From contig JAHQWL010000026.1 of assembly GCA_029856155.1 (NCBI GenBank), forward strand, positions 1-52,545: a DNA stretch of 52,545 nucleotides, in the 5' to 3' direction. Both the position numbers and the translations under genes were made by a program. The stretch is from Promethearchaeia archaeon (GTDB taxonomy: Archaea > Asgardarchaeota > Lokiarchaeia > Sigyniarchaeales > SOKP01). Shown here one piece after another: positions 17,749-26,281 of this stretch (positions within the stretch are counted from its first letter, which is position 1; each line of letters opens with the position of its first letter). The notes under the pieces are model-generated. The model had not been told where the DNA came from. It worked only from the letters and a program-made list of their open reading frames with translations, and did no database searches.

Positions 17749-19302
17749 CTAATTATGATTTATTGCCTCCCCATACCCAATTAATCTGTACCTTCTATTT
17801 ATAATTCTCGAAATAGCAAAGATGAAATTTTCAGGAGGACATATTGGAGGATTTAGTTTTAGGATAACGCTATTTTTTAGTATTTTTGTGACGGTTCCAC
17901 CCGTTTTTTCTGTTCCGACTACTAGCAATAATTTTTCATTATGTTTAACCGAATGTACTCTAAGCATCTGTTCAGAACCAATCACTCTATCTAAAAGATT
18001 CACTTTTAATTCTACTTCATCAAGAACCTCGGGTAAAGTACCGTGTTTTCCGACTAAATGGCCGATTAAGTGATCACCCTTAGTTAAAGCAGGATCCAAT
18101 TTTGTTCCCAAACCAATGAGCCCACCTGGCTTTGCATTATCCAATAGATTATTTCCCTGACTGATACTTACAACGGTGGATTTTAAAGGAGTGTAATTAT
18201 CTTTTATTCTTAAACCAGGACGAATTTCAATTTGCTCCCCGACATTAATTTTACCTTTTAAAACAGAACCGCCTATTACACCCCCTTTTAGATCATTGAT
18301 TTCTTTCCCAGGTCGATTAATATCAAAAGATCTTGCGATTAAAAATTGGAATTCTCCTTCACTAAATTCAGGAGATGGAATAATTTCTTCAAATGCTCTT
18401 AAAATTAGGCCTATATTTGCCCCAAATACTGCTGAAATTGGTATAATTGGAGCATTTTCAGCAATCGTACCTTTAATAAATTCTTTTATTTGTTGATAAT
18501 TCTCCATTGCTTGCTCTCGTGAAACCGCATCAATTTTATTTTGTAGTATGATAATATTTTCTATATTAGCTATATGCAATGCTTCTAGATGTTCTCTTGT
18601 TTGTGGTTGAGGACATATCTCATCTGCAGCGATTAATAGGCATGCACCATCCATCAATGAAGCACCACTCAACATTGTTGCCATTAAGATTTCATGACCA
18701 GGAGCATCGACAAATGAAATATTTCTTCTAAATTCCAATTGTTCTTTACATTTAGGACATAAAAAACGAGGTTGTCCTTTTTCTCTTGCTTTTTCTGCTA
18801 AGTAATATGTTAAAAACTCGTCACAACTTGGACAATATAAAATTGTTGCATTCGAATACCCCAATTTTATTGAAATTCCTCTTTCTTGCTCTTCTGAATG
18901 TCTATCTGTCCAATCTCCTGTAAGTGTTTTTACTAGTGTAGTCTTACCGTGATCTACATGGCCAACTAACCCAATATTGCATTCTGCTTGTTGTTTTATT
19001 AATTCTTTAATATTTGAAGCTTCAGTTTTAGGTTTAGGTTTAGAAGTAGGTTTGGTTTTTACTTCTGAAATTGCTTTTCCTTCTGATTTAGGTTCTTCTT
19101 GAGGAGTAATTTCTTCAAGTAATTGTTGAGCATTTTCAATATATTTTTGAGCTGTTGTTTTTCCAACACCTTTAATTTTTAATTTTGCTAAATCATCTGG
19201 TTTAATTTTAGCTAATTTTTCAATAGAATCTATTCCTGCTGCTTTCATTTTTTCTGCAGTTGCTTTCCCTATGCCACCAATATCCGTTAAGTCATATGAC
19301 AT
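17749..19302 (-). CDS. aif2g: Translation initiation factor aIF2 gamma with an N-terminal HhH domain
   Basis: Residues from about 107 form a standard aIF2 gamma: P-loop GHVDHGKT (114-121), the switch region RHSEEQERGISIKLGY, two Cys pairs (CPSC, CPKC) of the zinc knuckle, DAPGHE, NKID, and beta-barrel domains 2 and 3 to the C-terminus. It carries initiator Met-tRNA to the small ribosomal subunit as part of aIF2. What is unusual is the extra N-terminus: residues 1-62 are a tandem helix-hairpin-helix domain (LTDIGGIGKATAEKMKAAGI, LKIKGVGKTTAQKYI), joined by a Lys/Pro/Glu-rich linker (63-100). The remaining length of about 417 fits aIF2 gamma. The role of the HhH domain is unknown; nucleic-acid binding is the obvious guess. 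Confidence 0.9.
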   Translation of the reverse strand: MSYDLTDIGGIGKATAEKMKAAGIDSIEKLAKIKPDDLAKLKIKGVGKTTAQKYIENAQQLLEEITPQEEPKSEGKAISEVKTKPTSKPKPKTEASNIKELIKQQAECNIGLVGHVDHGKTTLVKTLTGDWTDRHSEEQERGISIKLGYSNATILYCPSCDEFLTYYLAEKAREKGQPRFLCPKCKEQLEFRRNISFVDAPGHEILMATMLSGASLMDGACLLIAADEICPQPQTREHLEALHIANIENIIILQNKIDAVSREQAMENYQQIKEFIKGTIAENAPIIPISAVFGANIGLILRAFEEIIPSPEFSEGEFQFLIARSFDINRPGKEINDLKGGVIGGSVLKGKINVGEQIEIRPGLRIKDNYTPLKSTVVSISQGNNLLDNAKPGGLIGLGTKLDPALTKGDHLIGHLVGKHGTLPEVLDEVELKVNLLDRVIGSEQMLRVHSVKHNEKLLLVVGTEKTGGTVTKILKNSVILKLNPPICPPENFIFAISRIINRRYRLIGYGEAINHN

Positions 19303-19751: not shown

Positions 19752-21896
19752 ATGGTTAGGCTTCTTATTAAAAAATTTATTTATCTAATAATCATAATAT
19801 TAGCGTTCACTCCTTTCGTTAGTCTCAGCTTACATTCTAATTCTATTAATTCTAGAGAGCGTATATCTTTAGAAAGTATTAAGACTGCTAATGGGGATTT
19901 AAATGTTGATTTGTCTATTTTACCCGATATTGAATATACTCCTCTAAATAATCTCTGGTATGACTCTAAGATTGAAATGCTAATAATTACTCCAAATAGA
20001 ACTGATTTTATTGATGCTGTTAAACCGTTGATGGAATGGAAAAATGAGAAAGGTGTCAAAACCATTATCTTAAGTAATTTCTCTTTATATGAAGGGGTTG
20101 ATGATGCAGAAAAAATTCGAAATATGATTAGATCTTATTATGAAACTGAAAACATACGATGGGTTCTTTTAGCAGGAGACGCTCAGAATAATTTAATTCC
20201 TATAAGATATGTATACAATCCAGATGCAATTAGGTTTGGGGAGGGAACAAATGAAATAGTTGGAGATGATGAGTATAAACCAACAGATTTTTATTATGCC
20301 GACCTTAATGGTACATGGGATAGTGATGGAGATGGAAAGTGGGGAGAGTCTCCGTATGATAATGCTTATGGATTAGATGAAATTGCTTGGGACCCTGAAG
20401 TATATGTTGGAAGATTTCCCGCAAACACCGCGAATGAACTTGCGATAATGGTAAATAAAACATTGAAATATGAGTCTGAACCAGAAGTTGGCGATTGGAT
20501 GAATAGAATGCTACTAGCAGGGGGGATATCTGATACTATTTATAAAGAGCCTCCAGATGGAGAAGATGAGTCTTTCTTAACAACATATATTTGGCAGAAT
20601 TACGTTGCATCAGAGATGAACTTTACACATTTATGGAGATCAACCTATTATACACCTCCAGAACCTAAAGAACCCCTGACATCAACAAGTTTTAAAAGAG
20701 AAATTAATAAGGGTTATTCAACGGTCATTTTTGCTGGTCATGGAGATCCTTATCAGTATGCGGATGCATCTGGTGGTATTTATACTAATACAAACGCCAA
20801 TAATATTTTAAATACTAATAATCTCTCATTAGTATATGCTGATGCTTGTAGTACATCTTCCTATGATATTAATGATAATAGTATCGGAGAATATTTAATA
20901 AAAAAGAATAATGCTGGAGCTATTGGTTATATTGGAGGATTGAGAGTAACATGGTATTATAAAGATGATTATAATCTTGAAATGTTAAATCGTGGAAATG
21001 CAAAATTATTTTGGAAAGAGTTTTTCCTTAATAATAAATTTCAGCAAGGTAAGGCTTTATATGATTCAAAGGTTGCGTATATGAATAGTGATTATTATGT
21101 ATATGGATTTGGCTCAACGTTTTTTGATTTTGAACGTAAACAACTCCTCACATATTGTCTTTTAGGAGATCCAGAAGTTGATATCTATACCAACAAACCA
21201 AAATTAGCGCTCAACCCGTTTACCGAAACTATCTATGAAGGTCAATTAGTCTCGATAACTATAAGAGATGTTAATAACAGAATTGTTCCTTATGCACGAG
21301 TTCATCTTAGAGGTTCTGATGGAAAATATCACACCGCATATGCCAATGAGAATGGTTTAGTTAATTTTCGTATTCCCGCTGAAGAAAATGAGATTTATAA
21401 TGTAACAATTACGGGGCATAATTTAAAAACCTCAAATTTTAATTTTAAAGCACTTCCAGATAGTACATCACCTCGGTTGTTTGGAATAGAATGTAACCCG
21501 AAAAATCCTAAAACTTCGGATATGACTACATTTAATATCAATGTTCATGATAATAAATCAGGAATTGAATCTGCATTTATTTTTTTATCTAAAAATAATT
21601 TTATCGATTATACATACTATGGATTAGCAAACTCCATTGAAGAAAATAAGGATCTAATACCAATCAAAACGGAGAGATTAACTCCTGGTAAATATTCTTA
21701 CTGTATTGTGTTACGAGATTATGCTAACAATACAGAGATCTTTTATAATTCAGGCTTTATTTTTTCAATTCCTCAACATATAATTAACTATATAGCTCCT
21801 TTCTCTTTAGTTTTAATTATTGCAATAGTGGGAGTTTCTGTCGTAACTCTTTATACAGGTTTAAAAAAATATTCACGTATCTTTAAAGAAATATAA
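19752..21896 (+). CDS. Membrane-anchored C25 (gingipain-like) cysteine peptidase
   Basis: The 714-residue protein starts with a signal peptide (KKFIYLIIIILAFTPFVSL). It continues with a peptidase C25 domain: MLIITPNRTDFIDAVKPL, RWVLLAGDAQN, an Asp-rich calcium-like segment (WDSDGDGKWGES), the His-Gly catalytic motif IFAGHGDPY (H330) and the nucleophile in YADACSTSSYD (C366). The His-to-Cys spacing of 36 is like gingipains. An Ig-like domain follows (GQLVSITIRDVNNRIVPY), then another beta domain and a C-terminal transmembrane helix (FSLVLIIAIVGVSVVTLY). It should act on the outer face of the membrane as a protease. Activity and substrates are inferred from the family. Confidence 0.85.
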   Translation: MVRLLIKKFIYLIIIILAFTPFVSLSLHSNSINSRERISLESIKTANGDLNVDLSILPDIEYTPLNNLWYDSKIEMLIITPNRTDFIDAVKPLMEWKNEKGVKTIILSNFSLYEGVDDAEKIRNMIRSYYETENIRWVLLAGDAQNNLIPIRYVYNPDAIRFGEGTNEIVGDDEYKPTDFYYADLNGTWDSDGDGKWGESPYDNAYGLDEIAWDPEVYVGRFPANTANELAIMVNKTLKYESEPEVGDWMNRMLLAGGISDTIYKEPPDGEDESFLTTYIWQNYVASEMNFTHLWRSTYYTPPEPKEPLTSTSFKREINKGYSTVIFAGHGDPYQYADASGGIYTNTNANNILNTNNLSLVYADACSTSSYDINDNSIGEYLIKKNNAGAIGYIGGLRVTWYYKDDYNLEMLNRGNAKLFWKEFFLNNKFQQGKALYDSKVAYMNSDYYVYGFGSTFFDFERKQLLTYCLLGDPEVDIYTNKPKLALNPFTETIYEGQLVSITIRDVNNRIVPYARVHLRGSDGKYHTAYANENGLVNFRIPAEENEIYNVTITGHNLKTSNFNFKALPDSTSPRLFGIECNPKNPKTSDMTTFNINVHDNKSGIESAFIFLSKNNFIDYTYYGLANSIEENKDLIPIKTERLTPGKYSYCIVLRDYANNTEIFYNSGFIFSIPQHIINYIAPFSLVLIIAIVGVSVVTLYTGLKKYSRIFKEI

Positions 21897-21914: not shown

Positions 21915-22466
21915 TCATTTTTTCTTCAATTTATCTCTCTTCAGATCTAATAGATATCTTATAGAACTAAAAGTACCTAGTATACCGTGGATAATTAATG
22001 CTAAAGCTATTAAAAATACTGCTATGAGATCATTAAATACAAATAAAAATATTATAATAAACATTCCTGCCAAAGTAAATTTCAATACCGAAGAAAATTC
22101 ACTAAATGCAACTTTCCATGTTTTAGATTTTGTTAATCTATCTTTAATCTCATTTTTGTATTCTTCTTCTCCCGCTTCCCTGATATACCAACTTCCTTCT
22201 ATATTATTAGCAAATAGAAAAAGACTCCACCAGAATATGAAGAAACTTAAATAAAAATCCAATGAACCCAATATAACAATCGGAATTTGCATTAATACCA
22301 TTCCTTTCCAACCAATACGTCGGGCTATTTTATTAGTTTCTAATTTTAATTCTCTTGTAACATATCTGGTACTTAGTATATCAAGTAATCTTCCAATAAT
22401 TGTAATAAAAGCATTAATCAAAATTTGATACCATTGTACATCCCGTAGGATTAATTGAAATAACAT
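21915..22466 (-). CDS. Multi-pass membrane protein of unknown function
   Basis: This 183-residue protein has about four hydrophobic helices (near ILINAFITIIGRLLDILS, MVLMQIPIVILGSLDFYLSF, FTLAGMFIIIFLFVFNDLIA and VFLIALALIIHGILG), a charged cytoplasmic loop (EAGEEEYKNEIKDRL) and a Lys-rich end. No transporter or enzyme motif is seen. It is convergent with the C25 peptidase gene (18 bp apart) and divergent from the 5S rRNA unit. Confidence 0.6.
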   Translation of the reverse strand: MLFQLILRDVQWYQILINAFITIIGRLLDILSTRYVTRELKLETNKIARRIGWKGMVLMQIPIVILGSLDFYLSFFIFWWSLFLFANNIEGSWYIREAGEEEYKNEIKDRLTKSKTWKVAFSEFSSVLKFTLAGMFIIIFLFVFNDLIAVFLIALALIIHGILGTFSSIRYLLDLKRDKLKKK

Positions 22467-22596: not shown

Positions 22597-22604
22597 TTAT
22601 ATAA
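22597..22604 (+). promoter_or_regulatory. TATA box of the 5S rRNA transcription unit
   Basis: TTATATAA lies 18-25 bp before the start of the leader stem at 22622, the distance expected between an archaeal TATA box and the transcription start. It is preceded by CCGACC, which could serve as a BRE-like element. The location supports transcription starting near 22622. Confidence 0.6.
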
Positions 22605-22621: not shown

Positions 22622-22805
22622 TATAACCACATGAATTAGTAGCAATTCGCTACTGCGCTGGAACCATCCGAACCCGGAAGTTAAACTTGTTTAGCGTTGT
22701 AGATAGTACTGTAATTGCGATTTATGGGAAACTACAAACTGTAAGTTAGCTTACGGTCATGGCATACAAGGAAAATACCCGGTCACGCTTTTTTGTGTGG
22801 TTATA
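22622..22805 (+). ncRNA. Precursor of the permuted 5S rRNA with closing terminal stem
   Basis: TATAACCACA (22622-22631) is perfectly complementary to TGTGGTTATA (22796-22805), so leader and trailer close the whole unit. Inside the leader a second hairpin occurs, AGTAGC-AATTC-GCTACT (22638-22654). Next to the 5S core, GCG (22655-22657) can pair with CGC (22786-22788) and TGG (22659-22661) with TCA-type bases 22783-22785, leaving small bulges around the two core boundaries. This resembles the layout recognised by the archaeal splicing endonuclease, but the fit to a strict bulge-helix-bulge is imperfect. Confidence 0.65.
22663..22784 (+). rRNA. rrf: 5S ribosomal RNA, circularly permuted gene order
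   Basis: The segment first reads the 3' portion of an archaeal 5S rRNA: loop C and helix III CCATCCGAACCCGGAAG, TTAAAC, the AGTACTG region, GGGAAAC, then the 3' strand of helix I, CTGTAAG (22739-22745). After a four-base TTAG loop it continues with the 5' portion: helix I 5' strand CTTACGG (22750-22756), TCATGGCATACAAGG and ACCCGGTC (ending 22784). CTGTAAG and CTTACGG pair over 7 bp with one G-U pair, CCGG pairs with CCGG as helix III, and ACAAG with CTTGT as helix II. The two parts add up to about 118 nt, the normal 5S size. The natural ends are thus joined and the new ends lie in loop C. Confidence 0.85.
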
Positions 22806-22811
22806 CGTAGT

Positions 22812-22821
22812 CTACTTTTTT
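22812..22821 (+). terminator. T-tract terminator of the 5S unit
   Basis: A run of six T (22816-22821) follows the terminal stem by about ten bases. Archaeal RNA polymerase commonly terminates in such tracts. Another T6 run (22789-22794) lies between the core and the stem, so an earlier end is possible. Confidence 0.45.
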
Positions 22822-22897: not shown

Positions 22898-23440
22898 TTG
22901 CCAAAAAAGTATATAGTCATAGCAAAGACCATTGGAAGAAAGTGGTTTCTAATTCTTGTGGGAATAATTATCATCGTTGCTCTTTATAATCCAATTGCAG
23001 CGATCTGGATGTCCGGCATCACTTTAGTATTGTTCATATTATCGTATGTTCCAAAATTGTTTTTTAAAAATAAACTTCATAAATTTTTGAAAAAATTTTA
23101 TAAAATTGAGGATGAATTGATTGCTCGAAAGTTTAACAAGCGGAACGAGGTAATAAGAGATATTTTGTTTGAAATCTCTCAAAATCAGGAGAAAAAAAAA
23201 TGGTTAATAACCTTTATAAATAAACAATATGTTTTCTATCATCAAGAAACGATCGAAAAATTTAAGGAACTTTATAATAAGGGATTTAGTGAAAAGGAAA
23301 TTCTTGATAATTTAAAAGATTATAAAGTTACCACGAAAGCGGAAATTAAGACCATTAAAGACAGTCTGATTAAACTTAACAGGCTAAGTGAAAGAGAAAT
23401 CTCTGTAAAAGAACACAGAGAGAAACAAAGGTTTGCCTAA
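22898..23440 (+). CDS. Hypothetical protein with N-terminal membrane hairpin and helical cytoplasmic part
   Basis: The 180-codon frame starts with TTG 22898. Two hydrophobic segments (residues 17-29 WFLILVGIIIIVA and 33-50 AAIWMSGITLVLFILSYV) are followed by a strongly charged helical region (EDELIARKFNKRNEVIRD, GFSEKEILDNLKDYKVT) to the end. This suggests a membrane-tethered helical protein. No family is recognised. It is transcribed away from the 5S unit, about 75 bp downstream of it. Confidence 0.55.
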   Translation: MPKKYIVIAKTIGRKWFLILVGIIIIVALYNPIAAIWMSGITLVLFILSYVPKLFFKNKLHKFLKKFYKIEDELIARKFNKRNEVIRDILFEISQNQEKKKWLITFINKQYVFYHQETIEKFKELYNKGFSEKEILDNLKDYKVTTKAEIKTIKDSLIKLNRLSEREISVKEHREKQRFA

Positions 23441-24614: not shown

Positions 24615-25166
24615 GTGCCCAAAAATCGAGATGAGTTTACAAGAATGCCACAAAAGTTTATACTGAAAATATTAACCGCAGGTGAAGGTGGCGTTGGAAA
24701 AACCACACTTTTACATAGGTACGTAGAAGGTAAATTTTCAGCTGAGACAAAAATGACAATCGGTGTTGAGTTTTTTTTGAAAGAAACAGAAATAGATTCC
24801 AAACAGTGCACATTGCAACTCTGGGATTTTGGAGGGCAAGAACGATTTCGCTTTTTGCTTGAAAGTTATGTTTTAGGCGCAAAAGGCGCACTACTCATGT
24901 TTGACCTCACTCGCATAACCACTTTGGAGAATTTGCAACAATGGATCAATATTGTACGTAAAGGTGCCCCAAATCTTCCCGTTCTCTTTTTAGGTACAAA
25001 ATTGGATTTAGGTGATGAGATTATGGTTGATGACGATTATGCAATGTCATTTCTAAACGAATTTAATTTATTTGATTTTATGAAAATCTCTTCAAAGACA
25101 GGCGAAAATGTTGCAGAAGCTTTTAATCTTTTAACAAGAAAAATATTAGAGCGTCAAGCCTATTGA
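24615..25166 (+). CDS. Ras/Rab-like small GTPase
   Basis: The 183-residue GTPase shows all motifs: G1 GEGGVGKT (23-30), G2 Thr in MTIGVEFF, G3 WDFGGQERF, G4 GTKLDL, and G5 SSKTGEN. The Q of GGQE, needed for hydrolysis in Ras proteins, is present. No C-terminal prenylation Cys is seen, so membrane attachment, if any, must differ from Rab. The start is GTG 24615 or ATG 24645. A PIN-domain gene overlaps its stop by four bases, and a close paralogue lies 585 bp downstream. Expanded small GTPases of this sort are typical of Asgard archaea. Confidence 0.9.
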   Translation: MPKNRDEFTRMPQKFILKILTAGEGGVGKTTLLHRYVEGKFSAETKMTIGVEFFLKETEIDSKQCTLQLWDFGGQERFRFLLESYVLGAKGALLMFDLTRITTLENLQQWINIVRKGAPNLPVLFLGTKLDLGDEIMVDDDYAMSFLNEFNLFDFMKISSKTGENVAEAFNLLTRKILERQAY

Positions 25167-25750: not shown

Positions 25751-26281
25751 ATGTTTAAGAACAAGGAATTCAAGCCGATTTTGCTGAAAGTCATTATAGG
25801 TGGTGATGGTGGTGTAGGAAAGACCACCCTCCTGCACAGATACATTGAAAGTGTTTTTCTCGCTGATACTCACCTAACTATAGGAGTAGAATTTTTCCTG
25901 AAAGAGATTCAAATTGATGAGACAAAAATTTTACTTCAAGTTTGGGATTTTGGTGGTCAAGAGCGCTTTAGACCTCTATTAATAAGTTATGCAACTGGAG
26001 CAAGAGGAGCATTATTGCTATTTGATCTAACTAGACCATCAAGTTTAAATCGAATTGACCAATGGGTAAATATTTGTAGGCAAAATAATCAAGATATTCC
26101 AATATTATTATTAGGGTCAAAGTTAGATTTAATTGATGCTATTACGATTGATGATGATTTTGCTACTAAATTTATAGATGAATATAACTTTTTCAATTAT
26201 TTAAAAATATCTTCTAAGACTGGAGAGAACGTAAATTTAGCTTTTGAATTATTAGCTAAAGAACTTATTAAAGACCTATAA
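25751..26281 (+). CDS. Ras/Rab-like small GTPase, paralogue of the 24615 gene
   Basis: This 176-residue protein has G1 GGDGGVGKTTLLHRY, G2 LTIGVEFFLKEI, G3 WDFGGQERFRPLL, G4 GSKLDL and G5 SSKTGEN. It matches the upstream GTPase along its whole length (for example VGKTTLLHRY and IGVEFFLKE in both), so the two arose by duplication with the PIN gene between them. No lipidation Cys is present at the C-terminus (LIKDL). Substrates and effectors are unknown. It has its own 140-bp upstream region. Confidence 0.9.
   Translation: MFKNKEFKPILLKVIIGGDGGVGKTTLLHRYIESVFLADTHLTIGVEFFLKEIQIDETKILLQVWDFGGQERFRPLLISYATGARGALLLFDLTRPSSLNRIDQWVNICRQNNQDIPILLLGSKLDLIDAITIDDDFATKFIDEYNFFNYLKISSKTGENVNLAFELLAKELIKDL

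Follow-up and report, generated by a model that had tools for sequence, protein, structure and literature searches.

The 5S rRNA gene of this Asgard archaeon is circularly permuted. In the window (the whole stretch of DNA analysed, 52,545 nucleotides), reading of the sequence at 22664-22784 revealed the 3' part of the gene ahead of the 5' part, with a TTAG loop between them, and we hold this identification to be practically certain. The swapped order is shared by 123 of 227 Asgard genomes from 21 family-level groups, and the sequences at the new ends suggest that the RNA is very probably matured by bulge-helix-bulge splicing into a circle, with RtcB as the likely ligase. An earlier note on this DNA had described a permuted 5S gene on an archaeal chromosome, with the 3' part first, the 5' part second, a TTAG loop closing helix I and a break within helix III or loop C; the proposal is borne out for this genome of the Lokiarchaeota group, with the loop at 22746-22749. 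Of the range given there, 22663..22784, the end coincides with the predicted 3' cut, and the predicted product begins one base after the start. That description is extended here by a bulge-helix-bulge that the new ends form, by further break positions, by introns in loop C of relatives and by the spread across the phylum.

In gene order, the Rfam 5S model RF00001 scored 28.4 bits at 22635-22747, against a gathering score of 38. Because this match ends at 22747, the 5' part of the gene is not covered, and the lack of a match above the gathering score is expected given the swapped order. Since the match was weak and partial, a rotated model, R1, was derived by aligning seven Asgard 5S genes of normal order (L003-L009) with RF00001 and rotating the alignment columns in silico. 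R1 contains no permuted sequence, and helix III was left out of it so that breaks in loop B and loop C would fit alike. On the window, R1 matched end to end at 22678-22784 (36.3 bits, E 3.1e-7; second-best match 9.9 bits), and across the organism's own genome the window locus had an E value of 2.5e-5, with the next match at 3.1. A normal-order match over the cut-off, which would have spoken against the earlier note, does not occur across the locus; the rest of the genome and the related Asgard genomes, to which the note had also pointed, agree with it as described below. The predicted product consists of 117 nt in normal order plus the 4-nt loop, and its minimum-energy fold gives helices I-V. 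Taken with the R1 and R2 matches and the covariation, this is a molecule of about 120 nt with the conserved elements and the five helices of 5S rRNA, although its folding energy is no lower than that of shuffled sequences (z -0.44). A 14-pair flank helix encloses the whole 5S unit.

Table 1. Features of the permuted 5S rRNA locus, in window coordinates.
Feature	Position	Strand	Basis
TATA-like box TTATATAA, predicted promoter	22597..22604	+	sequence only
Outer flank helix, 5' strand TATAACCACATGAA; 14 pairs with 22792-22805, two of them G-U	22622..22635	+	fold
Leader hairpin AGTAGC-AATTC-GCTACT	22638..22654	+	sequence and fold
GCG, inner end of flank helix; pairs with CGC 22786-22788	22655..22657	+	
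Bulge-helix-bulge strand 1: central helix CTGG 22658-22661, bulge AAC 22662-22664, predicted cut after 22663	22658..22664	+	
5S 3' part: most of loop C, helix III 3' strand, loop B, helix II 3' strand, helices IV and V, helix I 3' strand	22664..22745	+	R1/R2, product fold
TTAG tetraloop closing helix I; joins native 3' and 5' ends	22746..22749	+	sequence
5S 5' part: helix I 5' strand, CAUGG, helix II and III 5' strands, start of loop C	22750..22784	+	R1/R2, product fold
Bulge-helix-bulge strand 2: central helix CCGG 22779-22782, bulge TCA 22783-22785, predicted cut after 22784	22779..22785	+	
Outer flank helix, 3' strand TTTGTGTGGTTATA	22792..22805	+	fold
T run, predicted transcription end	22816..22821	+	letters of the sequence alone

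The 5S locus sits between an ORF on the minus strand (21915-22466) and one on the plus strand (22898-23440). The latter, just downstream of the 5S, encodes 180 aa without a Pfam match, and similar-looking starts were seen by eye after the 5S in L019, L029 and L030. Further genes in the window encode an aIF2-gamma-like GTPase (17749-19302, minus strand) that combines GTP_EFTU and eIF2_C domains with a helix-hairpin-helix at the N-terminus, HHH_5 (E 7e-11), a Peptidase family C25 protein (19752-21896, plus strand; PF01364, E 1.7e-61), and two Ras-family small GTPases that lie near each other (24615-25166 and 25751-26281, plus strand; PF00071, E 1.1e-42 and 4.5e-41).

The locus could in principle be an unused pseudogene or a mis-assembly, with a normal 5S missed elsewhere, and the state of the genome, a draft of 104 contigs that is 97.25% complete, leaves some room for this. 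We consider this explanation extremely improbable. RF00001 at E<=10 found no second 5S in the draft. Recurrence of the same order in so many genomes makes mis-assembly very unlikely, and the permuted loci carry compensatory changes in five of seven helices. Moreover, seven genomes assembled as single contigs (G004, G009, G056, G065, G106, G107 and G108) have a permuted 5S, and none of them gave an RF00001 match over the cut-off that would mark a normal-order gene (E<=0.01, strict filter). Normal 5S genes were met in three genomes with a permuted one, G012 (L002), G098 (L287) and G145 (L288); their contigs adjoin bacterial 23S rRNA, and these genes were therefore set aside as contaminants. The L002 contig of G012 holds, in addition, a group I intron in its 23S.

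To follow the arrangement across the phylum, a second model, R2, was built from 23 permuted loci. R2 scored at least 44.7 bits in 120 of the 227 Asgard genomes; three further genomes, all of family f16, did not pass the strict filter but are permuted as well (57.5, 57.5 and 35.1 bits, the last cut by a contig end). Normal-order loci reached no more than 30.1 bits with R2 within Asgard, and the best of ten non-Asgard genomes searched singly gave 37.6 bits, at a normal-order 5S beside an archaeal 23S. With R1, permuted loci scored up to 64.5 bits and the model's own normal-order source genes at most 29.9, a maximum under which the permuted L113, L061 and L131 fall (26.2-27.7 bits). When RF00001 was run over 58 genomes (the window's own and its relatives), it gave many weak matches, two of them abutting in several genomes, and most were read by eye as permuted. 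Over all 227 genomes RF00001 exceeded its cut-off in 64, including G012, G098 and G145 with their contaminant genes and G087, where a permuted gene lies just above it (38.4 bits). About 60 of the 227 genomes have normal-order genes, nearly all of them outside the groups with permuted genes; they belong to f2, f8, f21, f27 and f28, with the addition of G070 (f15), whose normal-order 5S near a tRNA may not be its own. The other 44 genomes are in neither count, among them G003, in which a permuted-like match is cut by a contig end (29.9 bits).

The window genome and G007 fall in one genus. The sister family f2 has normal-order genes, which indicates that the permuted arrangement can be absent, and since f2 lies in the same taxonomic order as the window's family, the trait was probably lost or gained more than once. 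Two individual genomes deserve mention. The permuted contig of G047 is closer to Jordarchaeia (L193) than to the family of this genome and is possibly a stray. G065, a single contig of 3.33 Mb, has two permuted 5S copies (L244 and L248) whose leaders differ and which both have four of four central pairs in the motif described below.

Outside Asgard, no permuted 5S was found in 398 and 292 genomes of two other archaeal phyla at E<=1e-6, under the strict filter and at a depth of 10-13 scored candidates in each genome, compared with 17 for Asgard. A loose pattern scan of genome contigs returned at least 120 stretches, bacterial ones included, of which the 30 with the strongest hairpins and nine archaeal ones were inspected. 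Among the scan matches listed, nine are permuted 5S genes by R1, and all nine are Asgard (L034, L061, L062, L091, L098, L113, L131, L140 and L146). The Asgard-named stretch L132 was unmatched by R1, which was run on 10 of the at least 120 stretches. The scan is too loose to serve as proof of absence outside Asgard, and the search of the two phyla is the better control.

The permuted loci share a conserved fold. Across 101 aligned loci (92 distinct), 94.8% of pair cells hold standard pairs, and changes on both sides were observed in 20 of 28 pairs. The covariation score was 0.657, compared with 0.193 in shuffled alignments and at most 0.124 in slid ones. The alignment was fitted to the same structure, so the pairing and covariation figures lean towards it. 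Helix I forms a perfect hairpin by script in 117 of 125 permuted loci, the remaining eight having no perfect stem, and its cap is a UNCG tetraloop in 69 of the 125. Extra stretches of about 30 nt were seen by eye in the helix IV/V arm of L015 and L178 and as an extension of the helix I cap in L030 and L230; L208, L212 and L215 are longer permuted loci, too.

A bulge-helix-bulge is the substrate of the tRNA-splicing endonuclease. At the new ends of the window gene, the leader reads GCG-CTGG-AAC and the trailer CCGG-TCA-CGC, so that a central helix of 4 bp is flanked by a 3-nt bulge on either strand, in what we take to be the archaeal orientation, with the predicted cut after the second bulge base. 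The predicted join, ACCCGGUC^CCAUCCGAACCCGG, is letter-identical to the unbroken loop C of relatives whose break lies in loop B, such as L029. The window gene is broken in loop C; relatives most often have the break on the 3' side of loop B, and G038 has it on the 5' side of that loop (join ..AUCGGAA^ACACCCG, four of four pairs, register picked by eye). Loop-B central helices include CCGG//CCGG, CUGG//CCAG, CGUG//CACG, CGGG//CCUG, CUGG//UCAG, CCGA//UCGG and GCCG//CGGU, with others, and typical joins are ..CCGGAA^GUUAAAC and ..CACGGA^AGUUAAG.

To assess how general the motif is, we compared the permuted loci with shuffled leaders. Four of the 125 loci (L205, L277, L278 and L218) were dropped because a contig end cuts the leader or trailer, which left 95 loop-B loci, 19 loop-B loci with an intron, six loop-C loci and G038. 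With the register free to move by a few bases, all four central pairs and 3-nt bulges were found in 104 of these 121 loci (shuffled leaders, 10.2%), and the four pairs together with an outer helix of at least 3 bp in 91 (shuffled, 1.8%). All six loop-C loci, the window included, have four of four central pairs in the free register, and the predicted circle is 117-124 nt long in 105 of the 121 loci. In a few loci the free-register choice does not rebuild a normal loop; for three of these, G038, G047 and G060, better registers give four of four each. In a strict register, defined as the join that restores the 8-nt spacing of loop B present in seven of seven normal-order genes, the test covered the 114 loop-B loci and left out the six loop-C loci and G038. 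Four of four central pairs were present in 89 of the 114 (shuffled leaders, 4.0%), and in 79 an outer helix of at least 3 bp accompanied them (shuffled, 0.6%).

The full central helix is missing from 25 of the 114 loop-B loci in the strict register. Nineteen of these have three of four pairs, including eight of the 11 f18 loci, each with one A-C mismatch in the central helix. In f17, all eight loci need a join that exceeds the normal length by one base to reach four of four. The permuted locus L259 (G063, f14) has no clear splice register, and its break may lie at yet another place, inside helix III or loop C. For the window itself, the helix beyond the central one runs for only 3 bp before the leader hairpin, and one central pair is G-U; a shuffled leader equals its motif with a frequency of 0.005. 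The central helix is not shown by minimum-energy folding of the precursor alone. In the thermodynamic ensemble of the window it appears at about 9%, and the fold in which motif and outer helix are enforced lies 1.4 kcal/mol above the minimum.

The leader CCGG might be read as the leftover of a tandem 5S duplication. In 51 of the 89 strict-register loci, from 16 families, the central helix is non-palindromic, and the leader complements the mature strand instead of copying it. For this reason, the duplication account was rejected as a general one, although it is possible for the 38 palindromic cases.

Alternatively, the permuted transcript could stay linear, with the endonuclease or other nucleases trimming it to the new ends in loop C or B, a closing helix holding these ends together in place of ligation, and helix I a closed hairpin. 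The flank helices could by themselves keep the ends together; their support is stronger than that of the central helix in some loci, and in 58 of 118 loci the longest leader-trailer helix exceeds the 99% level obtained with shuffled leaders. The permuted 5S RNAs of mitochondria provide a linear precedent. Against this, the bulge-helix-bulge is kept in most loop-B loci in the strict register, the join rebuilds a normal loop at three break positions, and archaeal bulge-helix-bulge products are usually ligated. A linear product therefore seems improbable, and splicing into a circle is the reading we prefer.

Some relatives contain a second motif of the same kind. In 19 of 56 loci of f1, the window's family, loop C carries an extra insert of 30-31 nt, preceded by CCGAA (CUGAA in one) and followed by CCCGG or CCCAG (L155, L156, L161, L166, L174, L178, L180, L186, L187, L190-L192, L194, L196, L197, L202, L204, L207 and L230). 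The insert ends form a second bulge-helix-bulge, in which UCCG or UCUG pairs with CGGG, four of four in 19 of 19. The inserts have 7-9 inner pairs when one mismatch is allowed, and their removal restores the unbroken loop. L206 (G047) has a 32-nt insert at a different site with the same properties. Permuted genes that bear such introns would need two splicing events.

The enzymes that this processing would need are encoded in the window's own genome, where PF01974 matches two splicing-endonuclease genes (103.5 and 72.6 bits) and one RtcB gene is present (569.7 bits). The presence of two PF01974 paralogues suggests an endonuclease of the heterotetrameric, broad-specificity class (PMC4731332). 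Transcription would start from the TATA-like box near 22600; a loose TATA-like pattern lies upstream in 24 of 56 loci of the window's family, at varying distance, and the window's own box does not fit it. The transcript would then be cut by the tRNA-splicing endonuclease at the bulge-helix-bulge of the new ends, and RtcB would likely ligate the ends of the product, giving a 5S rRNA circle in which the tetraloop closes helix I. The circle might be reopened at helix I, and the RNA would presumably be used in the ribosome.

Whether the circle is the final form or only an intermediate bears on this last step. Reopening at the helix I tetraloop would yield a 5S with normal ends, and it is a common view, stated in PMC12918454, that archaea re-linearise their circular 16S and 23S precursors before putting them to use; the same source, however, argues that ribosomes keep circular 23S rRNA. 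The frequent UNCG caps and the perfect hairpins described above suggest that the helix I cap is kept, and in some relatives (L030 and L230) the cap is even extended. We regard the circle as a mere intermediate as unlikely, and lean, with some reserve, towards a circle that is retained in the ribosome.

5S rRNA is among the most conserved RNAs, and the permuted genes lead one to expect that a ribosomal RNA is circular in the archaea most closely related to eukaryotes. The tRNA-splicing machinery gains a likely role in 5S maturation, and 5S rRNA genes gain introns. Three break positions, together with sister families of normal order, provide a natural series for how permuted RNA genes arise and revert. 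On a broader scale, it seems fairly probable that most Asgard lineages, with the Heimdall-type ones close to where eukaryotes are proposed to have arisen included, build their ribosomes with a covalently closed 5S from permuted, sometimes intron-bearing genes, the endonuclease and RtcB being obligatory assembly enzymes. In circularised Heimdallarchaeum genomes, 5S genes were unpredictable by existing models (methods of PMC8813620), and the swapped order likely explains why 5S seems to be missing from Asgard genomes. A 5S gene was reported in two Asgard MAGs (PMC9723677); these genes may be half-matches or normal genes. Among the papers listed for this subject from the open-licence PMC literature, a body that leaves out bioRxiv, no title or abstract opening showed an archaeal permuted 5S, and the phrase 'permuted 5S rRNA' had no match in open-licence PMC literature. 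A permuted model could mend 5S annotation.

For the permuted 5S of mitochondria we know of no splice motif. It has its own Rfam family, RF02547 mtPerm-5S (Valach 2014, as cited in PMC10085705), and resembles the Asgard 5S in its permuted order, but is organellar. RF02547 matched none of 31 Asgard genomes over its cut-off, the window genome included, and gave one weak match (24 bits, G017); mtPerm-5S was accordingly rejected as the family of the window gene. Circular isoforms of normal-order 5S occur in Halobacterium salinarum and Sulfolobus, where they have variable ends and are possibly part of 5S degradation (PMC12558985). These circles contain 5S, as predicted here, and where that report treats them they are not described as coming from permuted genes; a circular 5S alone is therefore not new. 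Permuted archaeal tRNA genes are likewise linked to bulge-helix-bulge processing, but they encode tRNA and not rRNA (PMC3218864, PMC3978253). An engineered circularly permuted 5S in E. coli works inside the ribosome (PMC7283268); it is man-made and linked into 23S rRNA, and aberrant 50S subunits build up in the cells as well.

The permuted SRP RNA of Thermoproteus tenax is circularised through a bulge-helix-bulge, as shown by RNA-seq and enzyme cleavage (PMC4731332). Like it, the Asgard 5S is an archaeal structural RNA with swapped halves that was 'missing' from annotation and has its new ends in a loop. Both have a bulge-helix-bulge at the junction, imply the endonuclease and RtcB, and have a TATA box, predicted in the Asgard gene, just upstream of a short leader. 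What marks the SRP type is found in the Asgard genes: swapped order, a motif of a 4-bp helix with 3-nt bulges, a join that restores the loop (with one extra base in f17), and genes for the endonuclease and RtcB. Unlike the SRP RNA of T. tenax and T. uzoniensis, the Asgard case, a prediction from genes, concerns an rRNA in another phylum and extends over many family-level groups. It further differs from the SRP RNA in its three break positions and in the extra introns that some of its genes contain.
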